From a virus: a stretch of DNA of 41,051 nt. The stretch is taken from the IMG/VR virus record IMGVR_UViG_3300029258_001195, positions 1 through 41,051 of that record, one strand, 5' to 3'. The notes under the pieces were generated by a model. That model did not search any database, had not been told where the DNA came from, and saw nothing but the letters and a program-made list of their open reading frames with translations. How positions within the stretch are numbered: the first letter of the stretch is position 1; each line of letters begins with the position of its first letter. A program made the position numbers and the translations under genes. Below are positions 77 through 34,956 of the stretch, in pieces.

Positions 77-1441
77 ATGAGCGATCCCGACACCACCGCG
101 GCCGACGTCTCCGTCAAGCTCGCGAAGCGCATCGAGTTCCGGACCCTCGACGAGCTCGTCCCGTACGACAACAACCCGCGGACGCACCCGAAGCGCCAGC
201 TCGAGCAGCTCGCCGCGAGCATCCTCCGGTTCGGATTCGTGAACCCGATCCTCGTCTCGGGCGGCAAGATCCGCGCCGGCCACGGCCGTCTCGCCGCCGC
301 GCGCATGATCGAGGACGACAACCCGGGGACGTTCCCCGACGGGCTCCCGGTCGTCGAGCTCGACCACCTGTCGGAGACCGAGGCGCGCGCGTACCTCGTC
401 GCCGACAACCGGCTGGCCGAGCTCTCGGGGTGGGACGAGGAGGCGCTCGAGACCGAGCTCCGCGAGCTCGAGGCGATCGGGTCCGAGAGCGGCGACGCGC
501 TCGAGGGGCTCGGGTTCTCCGAGGGCGAGCTCGAGCGGATCCTGTCGGTAGACATTCCGGGACAGGAAGGCGGTGGGGGCGGTGGCGCCGGTGGGCTCGA
601 CGACCTCGACGCGCTCGAGGAACCGGACGAGGCGACCGCGAAGCTCGGCGACGTTTGGCGGTGCGGCGACCACGTCGTGGTGTGCGGCGACTCGCTCGAC
701 GACGCGACGATCCGCGGAGCGATCGACGGGAAGCGGCTCGCGCTCGTTGTGACCGATCCGCCGTACGCGATCTACGGGAGCTCGACCGGAGTGGGCGCCG
801 ACGTCGCCGACGATCGGATGGTGCGGCCGTTCTTCAAGAAGGTGCTCAAGCTCGCCGACCGCGTCCTCGAGTGGTTCGGGCACGCGTACGTGTTCTGCGA
901 TTGGCGCTCGTGGCCGGCGTGGCACGAGTGCTCCCGGTCGGTCGCGACCCTCGAGGTCAAGAACGTCCTGGTGTGGGACAAGAAGAACAGCGGGCTCGGG
1001 TCGAACTACGCGAACGGGTACGAGCTCGCCGGGTTCCTCCACCGGATCCCGCCGAAGGAGCACGTCTTCAAGAAGACCGCGACGGGGATCCGCTCCGTCC
1101 ACGCGTCAAACGTGCTGCGGTTCGGGCGCACCGGACAGGGCGCCGGGTTCGAGGCGGACCACGAGGACCGCGAGCGGTTCCACAACGCGCAGAAACCGGT
1201 GGACCTCCTCCGCGAGCTCCTCCGGAATTCGAGCGACCACGGCCAGCGCGTGTTCGACCCGTTCCTCGGGAGCGGCTCGACGCTGATCGCCGCCGAGCTC
1301 GAGGAGCGCCGGTGCGTCGGGATCGAGATCGAGCCGCGCCGCGTGGACGTCTCGATCGCGCGGTGGGAGCGGCTCACCGGTCGGAAGGCCGAGCTCGTCG
1401 CCGAGCTCGAGGAGAGCGACGCCGAGGAGGACGCGGAGTGA
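77..1441 (+). CDS. ParB-like nuclease domain fused to DNA (adenine) methyltransferase
   Basis: Probable DNA-modifying protein that protects phage DNA or marks it. Residues about 15-110 form a ParB/Srx-type domain, with the typical opening around NNPRTHPKRQ and the GHGRLAAARM helix. After a Gly-rich linker near residue 180 comes a methyltransferase with DPPY at 227-230 (motif IV) and DPFLGSGS near 394-401 (motif I). The order IV then I is that of the beta class, and DPPY favours N6-adenine. No restriction partner is visible, so it is probably a solitary methylase. Such ParB-methylase fusions are common next to phage terminase genes, as here. I chose the ATG at 77, which starts the conserved part; an upstream ATG at 20 adds 19 unconvincing residues. 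Confidence 0.85.
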   Translation: MSDPDTTAADVSVKLAKRIEFRTLDELVPYDNNPRTHPKRQLEQLAASILRFGFVNPILVSGGKIRAGHGRLAAARMIEDDNPGTFPDGLPVVELDHLSETEARAYLVADNRLAELSGWDEEALETELRELEAIGSESGDALEGLGFSEGELERILSVDIPGQEGGGGGGAGGLDDLDALEEPDEATAKLGDVWRCGDHVVVCGDSLDDATIRGAIDGKRLALVVTDPPYAIYGSSTGVGADVADDRMVRPFFKKVLKLADRVLEWFGHAYVFCDWRSWPAWHECSRSVATLEVKNVLVWDKKNSGLGSNYANGYELAGFLHRIPPKEHVFKKTATGIRSVHASNVLRFGRTGQGAGFEADHEDRERFHNAQKPVDLLRELLRNSSDHGQRVFDPFLGSGSTLIAAELEERRCVGIEIEPRRVDVSIARWERLTGRKAELVAELEESDAEEDAE

Positions 1442-23081: not shown

Positions 23082-23160
23082 CCCGGACCCCGGTCCGGCG
23101 TGTCTGATTTTCGCGGCGCTCGTGCTCCTGTGGCTCCTGTCGGTCGTGGCGGGACGCTGA
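23050..23160 (+). CDS. Tiny membrane peptide, possible
   Basis: A 36-codon open frame starting at a GTG inside the end of the preceding gene. It has a short charged start and one hydrophobic segment (CLIFAALVLLWLLSVVAG) ending in Arg. The TM segment lies outside the upstream gene, and a nested lysis peptide is conceivable. The only evidence is the clean hydrophobic stretch in otherwise unexplained sequence. Confidence 0.35.
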   Translation: MRRSEPAGGDDPDPGPACLIFAALVLLWLLSVVAGR

Positions 23161-23272
23161 TAGGCTCGCCTCCGGAGATCGCTCCTCCACGCCCCCGCAT
23201 CGTCCCCGGGACAAAAAGCCCGCGCAGTTCGATCGGGGGCACCTTCCACCGCTCAACCCCCGGACGAATCCG

Positions 23273-23719
23273 ATGGCTAACTTCTGGTACCTCGAGGGGC
23301 TCCTCGCGCTGTTCAAGGGCGAGATCGACCTGGAGAACGACACCCTCCGCGTGCTCCTCGTGATGACGAACACGACGGCCGACACCGACACGACGGCCAA
23401 GTTCGTCGGCGACGTCGGCACGCTCGACGAGCACGACGGCACGCCGTACGCGCGCCAGACCCTCGTGCAGTCGCCGCCCGCGATCGACGCCCCGAACAGC
23501 CGCGTCGAGCTCCCGGCCGCCGCGACCGTGTTCTCGAGCCTCGGCGTCGGGACGCGCGACGTGCAGGCCGCGCTCCTCTACAAGTTCGTGACCGTGGACG
23601 GGGACAGCCCGCTCCTCGTCTACTTCGATTCGGGCGGGTTCCCGTTCTCGCCGAGCGGCGCCGACCTGACGATCAACTGGAACGCCGAGGGCGCCGTCCA
23701 GATCCGGAGCGGCACCTGA
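23273..23719 (+). CDS. Phage structural protein of unknown function
   Basis: A 148-residue beta-rich protein without signal or membrane segment. It has the pattern ALFKGEIDLENDTLRVLLVM then TPYARQTL then DVQAALLYKF, which I associate with small phage proteins encoded near fibres, but no domain name is certain. It is separated from upstream genes by a 112-nt spacer holding nothing recognisable apart from a purine-poor leader, and its stop overlaps the sulfatase start. Probably a virion or fibre-associated protein. Confidence 0.5.
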   Translation: MANFWYLEGLLALFKGEIDLENDTLRVLLVMTNTTADTDTTAKFVGDVGTLDEHDGTPYARQTLVQSPPAIDAPNSRVELPAAATVFSSLGVGTRDVQAALLYKFVTVDGDSPLLVYFDSGGFPFSPSGADLTINWNAEGAVQIRSGT

Positions 23720-25053
23720 TGAGAAGCCCGGTCCCCGCGCTCCTCCTGTCGGTGTGCGGGGCCGTGGCTCTCGAGGCGTTCCAGTTCGAGCCCGGCCCCG
23801 CGCTCCCGCTCCGCCCGCTCGACGTCGTCCTGGTGGACCTCGACGACGTCGGGACGTTCGACCTCGAGGACGACCCGACGGTCGCGACGCCGAACCTCGA
23901 CGCATTCCGGGCGAGCTCGGCGCGGTTCGCGCGCGCGTACACGACCGGACCGGTCTGCAGCGCGTCTCGGGTCTCGGCTCTCCTCGGGGTCTACTCGAGG
24001 CGCCAGGGGATCGGGAGGATCATCAAGAAGGGCGACCCGAACGACGTCGAGCAGGACGCGCCGACGCTCGCGGACGCGTTCACGCGCGCCGGCTACCGGA
24101 CCTGCAAGGTCGGGAAATGGCACCTCTCGGCCGGCGTCGAGTACCCGCTCGAGGACGCGCCCGAGCTCCTCGGGTTCGAGTTCGCGCGCGCGGTCGCGTC
24201 GCACAACCTCGGGGCCACCGCCGGCGCCGGTACCTACTTCTCGTGGGGCCGGATCGACGACGGGGTCGAGACCGTGACGACCGAGTACGCGACCGCCGCC
24301 CAAGCTCGAGCGGCTCGGGAGTGGTGGCTCGAGCACGAGGGCGAGCCGCGGTTCCTGTGGCTCTCGTTCACCGCCGCCCACGCGCCGTTCCACGAGGCGC
24401 CGGCCCCGTACTACACCGGGCCGCCGACGGCCGGGGACGGGCGCCTCGAGTTCGAGAGCATGATCGAGGCGCTCGACGACCGGCTCGGCACCGTGCTCGA
24501 GGTTCTCGATCCGTGCACGACGCTCGTGGTCGTCTCGTGCGACAACGGCTCGGCCATGCCGCCGCCGCCGCCGGTGCCCGTGTTCGCGAAGGCCGGCGCC
24601 CCGGGAGTCACCGAGCTCGCGATCGAGACCCCGCTCTACGTCCGCGGCCCCGGCATCCGTCCGGGAGCTCGTCGCCAGCTCGTCTCCGTCCTCGACCTTT
24701 GGGCGACGCTCGAGGAGCTCCTCGGGCTCCCGATCCCGGCCCCGACCGACGGGGTCTCGTTCGCCGGCGCGCTCGTGCCGTGGAGCTCGGCGCCGCCGCG
24801 GGAGTGGCTGTTTGCGGAGCGGTTCTTCCCGAACTACGCGCCCGAGCTCGGCGAGCCCGGGCCGGCGGGGTTCAACGCGCGCGAGCGCGCGATCGTCCGC
24901 GCCGACGGGTGGAAGCTCCGCGTGGATGAGACGGGCGGGGCCGAGGCGTTCCGCGGGCTGTTCCACCTCCCGAGCGACCCGCTCGAGCTCGCGCCCGTGG
25001 ACGACCCGGCGCTCGAGCTCGAGCTCCAGGCGCTCCTCGACCTGTTCCCGTAG
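23719..25053 (+). CDS. Sulfatase (type I, formylglycine-dependent)
   Basis: A 444-residue sulfatase that should hydrolyse sulfate esters, probably on a sulfated glycan. The expected blocks appear in order: metal Asp42/Asp43 in VVLVDLDDVG, TPNLDAFRASSARFARAYTT, the formylglycine core C80-S-A-S-R84 (CxAxR), AGYRTCKVGKWHL with active-site Lys and His, LSFTAAHAPF, SCDNG, and TPLYVRGPGIRPG. Cys80 must be converted to formylglycine by a host enzyme, and Ala in place of the common Pro is within known variation. A hydrophobic N-terminus (about 5-20) may be a signal peptide. The ATG overlaps the previous stop. A sulfatase among fibre genes is very unusual; it may trim the host coat. Confidence 0.92.
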   Translation: MRSPVPALLLSVCGAVALEAFQFEPGPALPLRPLDVVLVDLDDVGTFDLEDDPTVATPNLDAFRASSARFARAYTTGPVCSASRVSALLGVYSRRQGIGRIIKKGDPNDVEQDAPTLADAFTRAGYRTCKVGKWHLSAGVEYPLEDAPELLGFEFARAVASHNLGATAGAGTYFSWGRIDDGVETVTTEYATAAQARAAREWWLEHEGEPRFLWLSFTAAHAPFHEAPAPYYTGPPTAGDGRLEFESMIEALDDRLGTVLEVLDPCTTLVVVSCDNGSAMPPPPPVPVFAKAGAPGVTELAIETPLYVRGPGIRPGARRQLVSVLDLWATLEELLGLPIPAPTDGVSFAGALVPWSSAPPREWLFAERFFPNYAPELGEPGPAGFNARERAIVRADGWKLRVDETGGAEAFRGLFHLPSDPLELAPVDDPALELELQALLDLFP

Positions 25054-30457: not shown

Positions 30458-30865
30458 GGCCAGGCGGGGCGGGGTGCCGATGGGGTGCCCATGCTGTTCT
30501 GCAAGGTCTGGCGGTGGGGGTACGGTCGCGCGCTCGACCGGTGGGCGGCGTCGCTCGGGTTCGATCCGCTCGAGCACCGGGCGCGGTTCCGGTCTCGAGA
30601 TCGGGATGTTGGGGGGCTGTGGAGACGGTGTGGATAGACCGGGGACGGTGAGCCGATCCGGCGCCAAACTTGCCGCACCCTAAGCAGAAGGAGAATCTCG
30701 AAAGAGAACCCTGCCTGGGACGCGGCGCGCTCCCGAGCTCGAGGCGGGGGCCGAGCTCTCGGACGAGCGCGCCCTTGCCACGCGAGCTCCGAGGGGGCAC
30801 AAAGGTCGAGCCCCGCCCCGGCGGCCGGAATGGGCCGGCGCCAGAACGGGGCTCTCCCGCAACGG
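30458..30865. other. Intergenic/leader region before the early block
   Basis: About 400 nt between the late and early gene blocks. It holds one possible short gene (30491-30637), the most A-rich stretch of this neighbourhood (about 30665-30715), and at 30642-30664 a weak match (GGGAC..G...AGCCGAT) to the 81-bp repeat found at 33816 and 34611. It is the natural place for the promoter of the early block, but no clear -35/-10 pair is visible. Confidence 0.4.
30491..30637 (+). CDS. Possible 48-residue protein
   Basis: An ATG frame encoding a Trp/Arg-rich peptide (LFCKVWRWGYGRALDRWAAS...). Composition is unlike shadow frames, which here are mostly Arg/Ala/Pro, but no ribosome site or family is seen. 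Confidence 0.3.
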   Translation: MLFCKVWRWGYGRALDRWAASLGFDPLEHRARFRSRDRDVGGLWRRCG

Positions 30866-31912
30866 ATGGCACTATCGAACACCGCGCGACGGCTGGCAAC
30901 ACCCGAGCCCGTCGCGCCCGACCCGCTCGACGAGCTCGCCGCCAGGTCGCACCGGCTGGCGACCGTCGTTTCCGCGACCTCGAGGCGGCGCGATGTCCGC
31001 GAGACCCGTGCGAGGGTCCTGCTCCTCCTCCTCGAGCTCCGGTGCCCGCTTGGACGCTCCCCGCGTCTCCGGTGGTACGTCCCCGGCGCCGTGGCTCGCC
31101 TCGGGTGGCGGGGGATCTTGGACCGGTGGCGCGAACGGTTCGGCGAGGACCCGCCCGCCGAGCGCACGATCCGCGGCCACCTCGGCGCGCTCGAGGGCGC
31201 CTGCGCGATCCAACGCCAGCCCGGGGACTTCCTCCCGGTCCGCCGGGACTACCTCAAGGAAGGCCGCCGGCCGCGGCACCCGGACACCCTCCACGTCCTC
31301 GAGGACGAGCGCGACGCGACCTGGTGGGCGACCACCGGGGAGGCTCTCCTCGAGCGGAACCCCGACGCCCGGCGCGACCCTCGAGCGTGGAAGCGCCTCT
31401 TCGCCCGGTGGCGTGAGCTCGCCAGGACGCCCGAGCTCCCGTTCGAGCTCCCGGAGGACCCGCCGGCCGTGGCGCACGCTCCGGAGCGCGTCCAGGCCGT
31501 CCTCGTCGCCTCCACGGCCCGCGGAGCTCTCGCGAGCCTCTCGGGTCTCGCGGCCGCCGGGCTCCGCCTCGGGGCACGGGAGCGGCTAGAGCTCGCCAGG
31601 GATCCCGCGCGCCTCGCCGGCGCCGCCGGGCTCCTCTGGCGCGCGCTCGACCGCGGGGACCGCGTCCGGAACCCGGAGGGGTGGCTCCTCCGCGCGTTCC
31701 GGTCCGCCTCGAGCGACGAGCTCGCCGCCGCGGCCCGCGCCGCGATGCTCGAGCACGGGCGCCCGGAGCCGGCCCCGCCGGTCTCCCCGGTCCTCGAGCG
31801 CGCGACGCTCGAGCTCGAGGCCCGACGATCCACCGAGCCCGGGACGTTCCGGGCCGGACTGCAGGGGCTCCTCTGGGAGCTCGAGAACCCGACGCGGAGG
31901 AGCGAACCGTGA
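30866..31912 (+). CDS. Replication-initiator-like winged-helix protein
   Basis: A 348-residue basic protein heading the early block. Near residues 85-130 it has a winged-helix pattern (PAERTIRGHLGALEGACAIQ with a basic wing), and near 265-285 a segment NPEGWLLRAFRSAS, a combination common in phage and plasmid replication initiators. No polymerase, helicase or primase gene is present, so the phage probably uses host machinery recruited by such a protein. An in-frame ATG at 30830 would add 12 residues; neither start has a strong ribosome site. Confidence 0.5.
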   Translation: MALSNTARRLATPEPVAPDPLDELAARSHRLATVVSATSRRRDVRETRARVLLLLLELRCPLGRSPRLRWYVPGAVARLGWRGILDRWRERFGEDPPAERTIRGHLGALEGACAIQRQPGDFLPVRRDYLKEGRRPRHPDTLHVLEDERDATWWATTGEALLERNPDARRDPRAWKRLFARWRELARTPELPFELPEDPPAVAHAPERVQAVLVASTARGALASLSGLAAAGLRLGARERLELARDPARLAGAAGLLWRALDRGDRVRNPEGWLLRAFRSASSDELAAAARAAMLEHGRPEPAPPVSPVLERATLELEARRSTEPGTFRAGLQGLLWELENPTRRSEP

Positions 31913-33192: not shown

Positions 33193-33431
33193 CCGCGACA
33201 CCGACACGACCCGAGGAGCTCGCCGTGCTCGAGGCGTTGCTCGAGGGCGAGCGGCCGCGATATGCGGCCGAGCGGCTCGGCGTTCCCCCGCGGCGCCTCG
33301 CGCGCTGGATCGAGAAATGGGAGCGCCGGTTCGGCTACGACTGGGGGTGCGCCGCGGACCTCGGCTGGCTCTACGACGACCGCGCCGCCGATGTTCGGGA
33401 GTTCATCGAACGCGCGAGGGGCGAGCGGTGA
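33189..33431 (+). CDS. Small helix-turn-helix protein
   Basis: An 80-residue protein with a homeodomain-like helix-turn-helix at about residues 8-45 (ELAVLEALLEGERPRYAAER, then LGVPPRRLARWIEKWERRFG). It is probably a DNA-binding regulator of the early region. GTG start in a GTGA overlap. Confidence 0.6.
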   Translation: MTATPTRPEELAVLEALLEGERPRYAAERLGVPPRRLARWIEKWERRFGYDWGCAADLGWLYDDRAADVREFIERARGER

Positions 33432-33727
33432 GCGGCTGGCCGCCGGCACCGCCGCCCGGCAAGGCGCGGCTGACCATCCTGCTCGAGCTCGACGCCGTCC
33501 ACGAGCACGGTTGGGAGGACGCGCTCCGCCGGTACTTCACGAACCAGGAGCGGCCCGAGGACCCCGCCAAGACGACCGTGAGTGTCGGGATCCTGATCGC
33601 GAAGCGCCGCGCCGGGGAGCTCCTCACGTCCGAGCGGCTCGCCGCCGGGCTCGCCGACGTCCTCGAGGACCCCCGCCCGTTCGTCGAGAACCTCGAGTGG
33701 CTCGACGAGCTCGGGGGCTCCGGGTAG
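33428..33727 (+). CDS. Small hypothetical protein
   Basis: A 99-residue mixed alpha/beta protein (ARLTILLELDAVHEHGWEDA, then helices around GELLTSERLAAGLADVLED). GTG start overlaps the HTH gene stop. It is the last gene before a terminator at 33768, so it closes this transcription unit. Not recognised. Confidence 0.5.
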   Translation: MSGWPPAPPPGKARLTILLELDAVHEHGWEDALRRYFTNQERPEDPAKTTVSVGILIAKRRAGELLTSERLAAGLADVLEDPRPFVENLEWLDELGGSG

Positions 33728-33767: not shown

Positions 33768-33800
33768 CGGCCGCGGCTCCCCTCGAGGGGGTCGCGGCCG
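33768..33800 (+). terminator. Strong hairpin terminator before repeat copy A
   Basis: Arms 33768-33775 (CGGCCGCG) and 33793-33800 (CGCGGCCG) pair perfectly, continued by 33779-33782 with 33787-33790 around a TCGA loop, with a small internal bulge. T-containing sequence (TCGTTCGTTC) follows. This fits factor-independent termination 41 nt after the upstream stop. Confidence 0.7.
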
Positions 33801-33815
33801 TCGTTCGTTCTGGGG

Positions 33816-33896
33816 ACAGAAAAGAGGCGAAAAGGGCTGGCGAACTAGGGACAGAAAGCCGATGGTATGCCTACCGCCCCGCGAGGGGCTCAACCC
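33816..33896 (+). repeat. 81-bp promoter/leader repeat, copy A
   Basis: Matches copy B (34611-34691) at 79 of 81 positions. It lies 15 nt after a terminator and 18 nt before the ATG of the next gene. It can fold into three small stems: GGCT/AGCC around an 18-20-nt loop, GGTA-TGCC-TACC, and GCCCC-GCGA-GGGGC (a GNRA loop). Probably a promoter plus structured leader; no known riboswitch class was recognised with confidence. Confidence 0.8.
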
Positions 33897-33914
33897 CCAA
33901 CCCCCGCAACGACC

Positions 33915-34541
33915 ATGACCGCCAAGAACACCCGCCCCGCCTCCTCCCGCCTCGACGTCGCTCTCGACGAGCACAGCCGCCTCGCCGAGCTCCGCGACTC
34001 CGTCGCATCGCTCCTGACCGCGATCCAGTACCGCGAGACGAGCGACGACCCCGAGGGCGACGACCTCCACCGTCACACGATGACCGAGCTCGAGCAGCTC
34101 GTGGAGGCGCAGCAGGCGGTGACGTTCGCGCTCGAGGCCGCCGGCGAGCGGATCCACCTCCTCCACCGCGCCGGCGCCGCCGAGGAGCCCGCCGACCCGG
34201 ATCTTGAGCTCATCGCCGACGCCGAGCCGACGCCCGTCATCGACGTCATCGCCGACCAAATGGACGACACCGGCTGGATGGTCCTCGCCGCGTTCCACGG
34301 CTCGATCATGGCGAACGGCCACGACTTCGGGTTCGTCGAGGACGTGGAGCGCGTCCTGGCGATCGACGCCGAGACGGTCCTCGACCGCCTCGAGACCCTC
34401 TCCAGCCTCCGCGTCCTCGACTTCGGCGAGCCGTACGAGAACGAGACCCAGCTCACCTGGTGCAGCGACGAGGCCCGCGACGCGGTCGCCGAGCTCCTCG
34501 CGAAGCGCGACCTTTCGGACGTCGAGACGCGCGCGCTGTAG
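33915..34541 (+). CDS. Acidic hypothetical protein under repeat A
   Basis: A 208-residue strongly acidic protein. The first half is helical (SRLAELRDSVASLLTAIQYR and MTELEQLVEAQQAVTFALEA); the second half has DDTGWMVLAAFHGSIMANGH and a final helix. The acidity and its own promoter-like leader suggest an early, highly expressed takeover or DNA-mimic type protein, but that is inference. No ribosome site: the leader is C/A-rich. Confidence 0.6.
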   Translation: MTAKNTRPASSRLDVALDEHSRLAELRDSVASLLTAIQYRETSDDPEGDDLHRHTMTELEQLVEAQQAVTFALEAAGERIHLLHRAGAAEEPADPDLELIADAEPTPVIDVIADQMDDTGWMVLAAFHGSIMANGHDFGFVEDVERVLAIDAETVLDRLETLSSLRVLDFGEPYENETQLTWCSDEARDAVAELLAKRDLSDVETRAL

Positions 34542-34564
34542 GGCTCGCCGCTCTCCTCCTCACC

Positions 34565-34600
34565 AGGCGGGGTCTCTCGGGCGACCGGGCGGCCCCGCCT
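34565..34600 (+). terminator. Hairpin terminator before repeat copy B
   Basis: Arms 34565-34572 (AGGCGGGG) and 34593-34600 (CCCCGCCT) pair perfectly over 8 bp around a 20-nt GC-rich loop, 23 nt after the upstream stop, followed by CTTG. It mirrors the hairpin in front of copy A. Confidence 0.6.
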
Positions 34601-34610
34601 CTTGCGTGGT

Positions 34611-34691
34611 ACAGAAAAGGGGCGGAAAGGGCTGGCGAACTAGGGACAGAAAGCCGATGGTATGCCTACCGCCCCGCGAGGGGCTCAACCC
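34611..34691 (+). repeat. 81-bp promoter/leader repeat, copy B
   Basis: Second copy of the 81-bp element, 11 nt after a terminator hairpin and 19 nt before an ATG. It differs from copy A only at two positions (both A in A, G in B), while the flanks and downstream genes are unrelated. Selection on the element itself is implied. Confidence 0.8.
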
Positions 34692-34710
34692 GCAACACCC
34701 CCCAAAAACG

Positions 34711-34956
34711 ATGACCCGCAACGCCCACGACCCGAACGCCAGCCTCGAAACCACCGCCGGCGAGCTCCGCGAGCTCCTTGACCGCGTCTCCGCCAAGGTC
34801 GAGCGGGACGCGTTCGTGCCCGCGCGCGAGAAGCGCGCCACCTGGCCGGCCGTCGGTTCCGCGAATCACGCCCGCACGTTGCTCGTCGAGGCGCTGTTCG
34901 CGCTCGGGGGCATCGACGAGGACGAGGCCGCCAGCCGGTTCGCGGTGACGCTGTGA
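34711..34956 (+). CDS. Small hypothetical protein under repeat B
   Basis: An 81-residue, mostly helical protein (LETTAGELRELLDRVSAKVE, then ANHARTLLVEALFALGGIDE). It has its own 81-bp leader and no visible ribosome site, and then starts a run of at least nine overlapping genes. Not recognised. Confidence 0.55.
   Translation: MTRNAHDPNASLETTAGELRELLDRVSAKVERDAFVPAREKRATWPAVGSANHARTLLVEALFALGGIDEDEAASRFAVTL

Follow-up and report, generated by a model that had tools for sequence, protein, structure and literature searches.

A duplicated 81-bp putative leader element with an internally repeated 12-mer motif before unrelated genes of a high-GC tailed phage

The window analysed here, a 41,051-base virus record taken as a whole, belongs to a tailed phage of 71.7% GC whose gene set includes a large terminase, a fused head/protease gene, and tape-measure and baseplate genes. 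The closest INPHARED relatives of the terminase, about 50% identical, were those of Wolbachia WO and Rhodobacter phages. IMG/VR record 3300017989_000297 is a near-identical record of the same phage, and a 32,482-base IMG/VR record represents the same phage at 99.97% and stops short of the 81-bp element described below. Among relatives with usable synteny, G002 (26.9 kb) and G003 (39.4 kb) were the nearest. Coordinates are window positions, and features lie on the + strand unless stated otherwise. The gene at 77–1441 (+) encodes an N6/N4 DNA methyltransferase (PF01555) with an N-terminal stretch that, by eye, we take to be ParB-like.

Two copies of an 81-bp repeat, E1 (33816–33896) and E2 (34611–34691), agree at 79 of 81 positions with an offset of 795 and differ at 33825 (A/G) and 33830 (A/G). 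The similarity runs past the 81 bp and through both start codons: a repeat search returned the pair as a two-copy family of 112 nt at 88%, and self-blastn aligned 33813–33920 with 34608–34716 (91.7%, E 2e-37), the next self-match being far below. A 27-mer of the repeat had two sites in the window against zero expected. Each copy is preceded by a strong hairpin, across a gap of 15 nt for E1 and 10 nt for E2, and is followed after 18 and 19 nt by ATG 33915 and ATG 34711, respectively. Neither ATG has a Shine-Dalgarno sequence before it, and the genes that follow are unrelated, with no BLASTP alignment between them at E ≤ 100. On the 79 of 81 identities, the spacings, the strong hairpins, the missing ribosome sites and the unrelated genes, our results agree with the initial annotation of this locus.

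The two copies of the repeat differ at 2 of 81 positions, compared with 6 of the 19 alignment columns in the spacer that leads to the start codon (Fisher p 5e-4). Because the repeat differs less than the spacer, the comparison suggests that it has been under constraint beyond mere recency of copying; on this alignment, the repeat is under a constraint, or a conversion, from which the spacer escapes. G-poor, CA-rich unpaired stretches (8% G, no stable fold) lead up to the start codons at 33890–33914 and 34685–34710. A conserved leader peptide from an upstream ATG (33862 in copy 1, 34657 in copy 2) was considered and rejected because the frames differ between the copies: read by eye, the first opens an 18-codon frame overlapping ATG 33915, and the second an in-frame extension.

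Gene A (33915–34541) encodes 208 aa, and no relative of it was found in IMG/VR or INPHARED; tblastn likewise gave none in the segments of G002 and G003, of which G003 alone covers the region. Gene B (34711–34956) encodes 81 aa and has one relative in IMG/VR and INPHARED, that of phage G003, which is of the same length and 34% identical overall. The neighbours of this relative differ from those around gene B, and its leader is a different sequence.

The hairpins before the copies, at 33768–33800 (−30.8 kcal/mol, z −4.56, 0/200 shuffles) and at about 34565–34600 (−33.0 kcal/mol, z −3.15, 2/200 shuffles), are probable terminators of the genes at 33428–33727 and 33915–34541, respectively. The initial annotation had joined hairpin and repeat into one duplicated terminator-plus-leader cassette. 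The hairpins are indeed strong, but they look more like terminators of the preceding genes than parts of a cassette, because their sequences differ between the copies. Both have the stable GC stem of an intrinsic terminator; neither passed a scan for a T tract (5 T in 8 bases), and their tails, GTCGTTCGTTCT and CTTGCGTGGT, are T-rich just in part. In G002, a hairpin followed by TTTTGTT lies 5' of the relative of gene 37581, suggesting that this relative does have genuine terminators between such genes.

On the + strand, no TANNNT box was present in E1 or E2, no sigma-70-like site was found in the E1/E2 region, and no extended −10 box of the type seen before a third leader, E3 (below), occurred in or just 5' of either copy. 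For copy 1, TAGCAT at 33725 overlaps a stop codon; before copy 2, CTGTAGGGCTCGCC, a look-alike of the E3 box, overlaps one as well. Transcription of E1 and E2 as leaders is assumed here, since no promoter was identified for either. Elsewhere on the + strand, the hexamer TAGGCT occurs five times (9752, 17684, 23161, 27666 and 37407), each time at a gene boundary, and three of the five lie 6–8 nt before an ATG, overlapping a TAG stop codon. These hexamers could possibly be −10 boxes of leaderless messages, which is only a lead because several overlap TAG stop codons.

Inside each copy we found an internally repeated motif that the initial annotation had not described. Across the 41 kb, the 12-mer GGKACARAAARS turns up five times, always on the + strand, against an expectation of zero that is generous because the pattern was drawn up after the sites had been seen. 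They are confined to three leaders. Each full copy holds two sites, 35 nt apart, namely 33813–33824 (distal) and 33848–33860 (proximal, GGGACAGAAAGCC) in E1, and 34608–34619 and 34643–34655 in E2; the third leader holds one, at 23208. The core ACARAAA occurs at the same five sites, against 0.57 expected, and nowhere else in the window. The distance from the proximal motif to the ATG is 67 nt in E1, 68 nt in E2 and 65 nt in E3, and in all three leaders the sequence between motif and ATG lacks a Shine-Dalgarno sequence. The motif was absent from the segments of G002 and G003 examined, even before the 82%-identical G002 homologue of gene 23273, which argues against its being a leader signal.

E3 (23208–23261) is a divergent, partial third copy, also absent from the initial annotation, and its motif sits in the 112-nt gap 5' of a gene of 148 aa (23273–23719) with relatives in G002 (82% protein identity) and G003 (55%). 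Within E3, GGGACAAAAAGCC is followed by GCTCAACCC, in the same order as in E1 and E2. A collinear match as good as that of E3 with E1 was found once in the real genome, and at least one was found in 1 of 150 dinucleotide shuffles of it; the test required a 13-mer with at most one mismatch together with an exact 9-mer whose diagonal was almost the same, leader position lying outside its criteria. Aligned locally with E1 or with E2 singly, E3 scored weakly (4/100 and 6/100 shuffles did as well), and cmsearch with the E1/E2 covariance model did not recover E3. For a possible fourth leader, the gap before gene 30830, the alignment was not significant. That gene (30830–31912, +) probably starts at ATG 30830 and not at GTG 31091, its G003 relative being longer at the N-terminus, and the gap before it, of about 370 nt, might hold an origin or a control region.

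The leader of gene 23273 contains a predicted hairpin (23191–23240) with the motif as its apical stem-loop and an outer 7-bp stem that is kept in G002. The stretch 23188–23246 gave a z of −3.79 (0/200 shuffles as good) and the corresponding stretch of G002 a z of −3.27 (1/200), both stretches having been picked after the fold was seen; when the full 100-nt leaders are folded, the signal is weaker (z −1.52 for E3 and −0.87 for G002). The outer seven pairs are identical and one two-sided change is present, in a comparison of two sequences only. Since the G002 leader has the hairpin and no motif, the hairpin can exist without the motif. Upstream of E3 lies a candidate extended −10 box, TGATAGGCT (23158–23166), the sole TGNTANNNT on the + strand of the window, and TGATAGTCT in G002 and TGCTAGACT in G003 occupy a like place 5' of the homologous gene, making an extended −10-like box common to the three related phages. 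As it lies downstream of this box, E3 would be transcribed, and would be a leader RNA, if TGATAGGCT is a promoter.

The riboswitch-like structured leader proposed for E1 and E2 was not supported. Rfam gave no match at gathering score over the whole window, and at a permissive E ≤ 10 it returned just unrelated sub-threshold matches, none of them plausible. A c-di-GMP-I (GEMM)-like aptamer was suspected from GGGACAGAAAGCC, which resembles the consensus of that family, and was rejected, the family being absent from the Rfam matches up to E 10. The fold energies of the 81-nt RNAs fell within the shuffled range (E1, z −0.72, 60/300 shuffles as good; E2, z −1.16, 37/300). The three stems of the original proposal, one capped by GCGA, can be drawn, but neither thermodynamics nor comparison supports them. 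The possible GCCCC-GCGA-GGGGC hairpin lies at 33876–33889 in E1 and 34671–34684 in E2, and the minimum-energy folds differ, one copy favouring this hairpin and the other a competing outer stem that uses the same C run. Both differences between the copies map to the outer stem and weaken it in E1 (A opposite C), with no compensation. A covariance search, proposed as a check, was run with a model of E1 and E2, which recovered itself and one weak match in G002 (E 1.2); for stem covariation, the two copies differ at just 2 of 81 sites, and no homologues were found. The conserved feature of E1 and E2 is, judged from the two copies, sequence and not structure.

Searches of IMG/VR, INPHARED, PLSDB and GTDB genomes turned up no further occurrence of the element at the sensitivities used. 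An exact 19-mer had no hit in IMG/VR, GGGACAGAAAGCCNNTGG matched nine stretches, none with the element around the match, and a two-block pattern matched in IMG/VR just 3300017989_000297, the record of the same phage. In GTDB genomes the two-block pattern matched 12 stretches that showed no resemblance beyond the pattern, about the number expected by chance by our own estimate. Blastn gave no match in INPHARED and five partial matches (E about 0.5) in PLSDB. Of 80 related viral records, 50 were searched, for the most part the longer, and gave four matches of 22 nt, all to the same stretch of one conserved reading frame. Two groups of genomes were searched as guesses at the host. The first, 392 genomes from the phylum of a Planctomycetes record, yielded five partial matches of 29–34 nt, of which L121 and L122 are in long open frames, L120 resembles by eye a tRNA 3' region, L118 is C-rich and L119 is the fifth. 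The second, 396 genomes from the phylum of a Streptomyces record, yielded a single partial match, which likewise falls within a long open frame.

G003 has a duplicated leader of its own, an exact 48/48-nt repeat on the minus strand (L111, 6816–6863 and 7473–7520) before two unrelated genes. It comprises a GGGGGC-TGCG-GCCCCC hairpin and then CA-rich sequence, with just 16 nt from the previous stop codon to the repeat, and its fold is not unusual against shuffles. The layout of GC hairpin, CA-rich stretch and ATG is like that of E1 and E2, whereas the sequence is different. On this comparison of two phages, leader copying, the hairpin and the CA-rich stretch recur in G003 and the sequence does not.

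Phage T7 has intercistronic RNase III hairpins and the phi10 5' hairpin leader. The locus here resembles these in having repeated predicted hairpins before phage genes; in T7, such hairpins shape mRNA ends. Gene A resembles a moron in that it stands between two other genes together with a leader and a terminator-like hairpin of its own, and differs in that no promoter was identified for it. The closest known kind of element, in the excerpts of PMC3203893 used here, is the start-associated sequence (SAS) of cluster K mycobacteriophages, a 13-bp asymmetric, phage-specific sequence that precedes genes of unrelated families, nearly always with the same orientation, some copies having an extra upstream repeat. 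There, SAS typically lie 3–7 bp before the start, contain AGGAG and number 11–19 per genome (PMC3203893), and their role is still in need of experimental proof according to an excerpt of PMC12699233. The likeness is that of a short, phage-specific, one-orientation sequence of unproven function before unrelated genes; relative to the SAS of these excerpts, the present motif differs in lying 65–68 nt before the start, lacking a Shine-Dalgarno core, and having five sites in three leaders, one of them before a structural-block gene. As a candidate SAS the motif was rejected, the consensus GGGATAGGAGCCC having no site within two mismatches (1.43 expected) and the position not fitting either; it is not a SAS and at most might work like one. 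In enteric bacteria, a CA/ACA-rich leader acts as a translation enhancer (PMC3879156, in excerpt), and the CA-rich leader near the start codon is a shared feature, but those enhancers act together with a Shine-Dalgarno sequence in the text excerpted (PMC3879156), and none was seen before the ATGs here.

The repeat pair is real, not due to chance, and both more sequence-specific and wider, extending to three leaders, than first noted. Of the portable promoter with a structured leader originally proposed, the riboswitch-like structure is not supported and a portable, gene-start-associated element is, because two near-identical copies stand before unrelated genes, a third partial copy keeps the same distance to the ATG, and a related phage has an analogous, unrelated duplicated leader. 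We lean, with somewhat less than even confidence, towards a phage-specific 5'-leader signal that probably acts in mRNA and was copied between genes. The motif would be recognised in mRNA by a trans factor, either protein or small RNA and of phage or host origin, which may adjust the translation or stability of messages with such leaders. E3 would present the motif as an A-rich apical loop, and the upstream hairpins may terminate transcription of the genes before them, which would make leader, gene A and hairpin a self-contained unit. Against this reading stand the unexceptional fold energies of the 81-nt RNAs, the absence of the motif from the G002 and G003 segments examined, and the weak similarity of E3 to either full copy by itself. 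Nearly as likely as this mRNA signal is a promoter/operator cassette acting at the DNA level, in which a phage activator, repressor or alternative sigma factor binds the GGKACARAAAG sites and transcripts begin within the repeat or directly behind it, with a short CA-rich 5' end; gene A would then be a moron-like insert that brings along a promoter and a terminator. Conservation in sequence rather than structure fits such a cassette, as do the direct repetition of the motif 35 bp apart within each copy and the terminator-like hairpin before each copy, beyond which transcription would be expected to start anew; a candidate start region is CTCAACCC, with its A 44–47 nt downstream of the motif start. 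However, a start at CTCAACCC would place the −10 at the GC-only hairpin GCCCCGCGAGGGGC, the extended −10-like box of E3 lies upstream of the motif and not downstream, and the + strand offers neither a TANNNT box in either copy nor a sigma-70-like site in the region.

It seems unlikely to us that the repeat is a duplication scar or recombination target, a by-product of the copying that set gene A beside gene B, with its identity due to recent copying or gene conversion and not to function. There are just two full copies, direct repeats 795 bp apart that flank gene A, and G003 has a relative of gene B and, by tblastn, none of gene A; against this, the adjoining spacer is more diverged than the repeat, both copies are in register with the start codon, and E3 retains just the motif and GCTCAACCC. 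A metabolite riboswitch or other three-stem structured cis-regulatory RNA, as initially envisaged, is very improbable. The element is in leader position, and a GNRA-capped hairpin and two mutually exclusive CCGCCCC pairings can be drawn, but the Rfam results and the unexceptional fold energies described above speak against such an RNA, as do E1/E2 differences that weaken the E1 outer stem instead of compensating; moreover, no match links either gene to metabolism, gene A being an orphan and gene B having a single phage relative. Returning to the mRNA leader signal, a speculative form of it to which we give little weight is a small post-transcriptional regulon, in which an RNA-binding factor would recognise GGKACARAAAG and coordinate the translation of messages without a Shine-Dalgarno sequence. 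The motif would be read in tandem in two early-block leaders and singly, on a hairpin loop, in a structural-block leader, and relatives would use the same layout with other, independently duplicated sequences.

Few control signals have been mapped in phages of uncultured high-GC bacteria. Confined as it is to three leaders within this genome, the motif provides a handle on possibly co-controlled genes, and the element is a compact module for testing translation without a Shine-Dalgarno sequence. Given the duplicated, unrelated leader of like layout in G003, phages of this group seem to copy leaders habitually.

G002 also carries tandem paralogous small genes (L109, 90–173 and 299–382), which are coding and 76% identical over 84 nt. 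Immediately 3' of the gene that follows E3, the window has a sulfatase gene (23719–25053, +; Pfam PF00884, E 1e-25) with a 51% relative in G002 and an apparently signal-like N-terminus, and the enzyme may act on a sulfated polysaccharide of the host surface.
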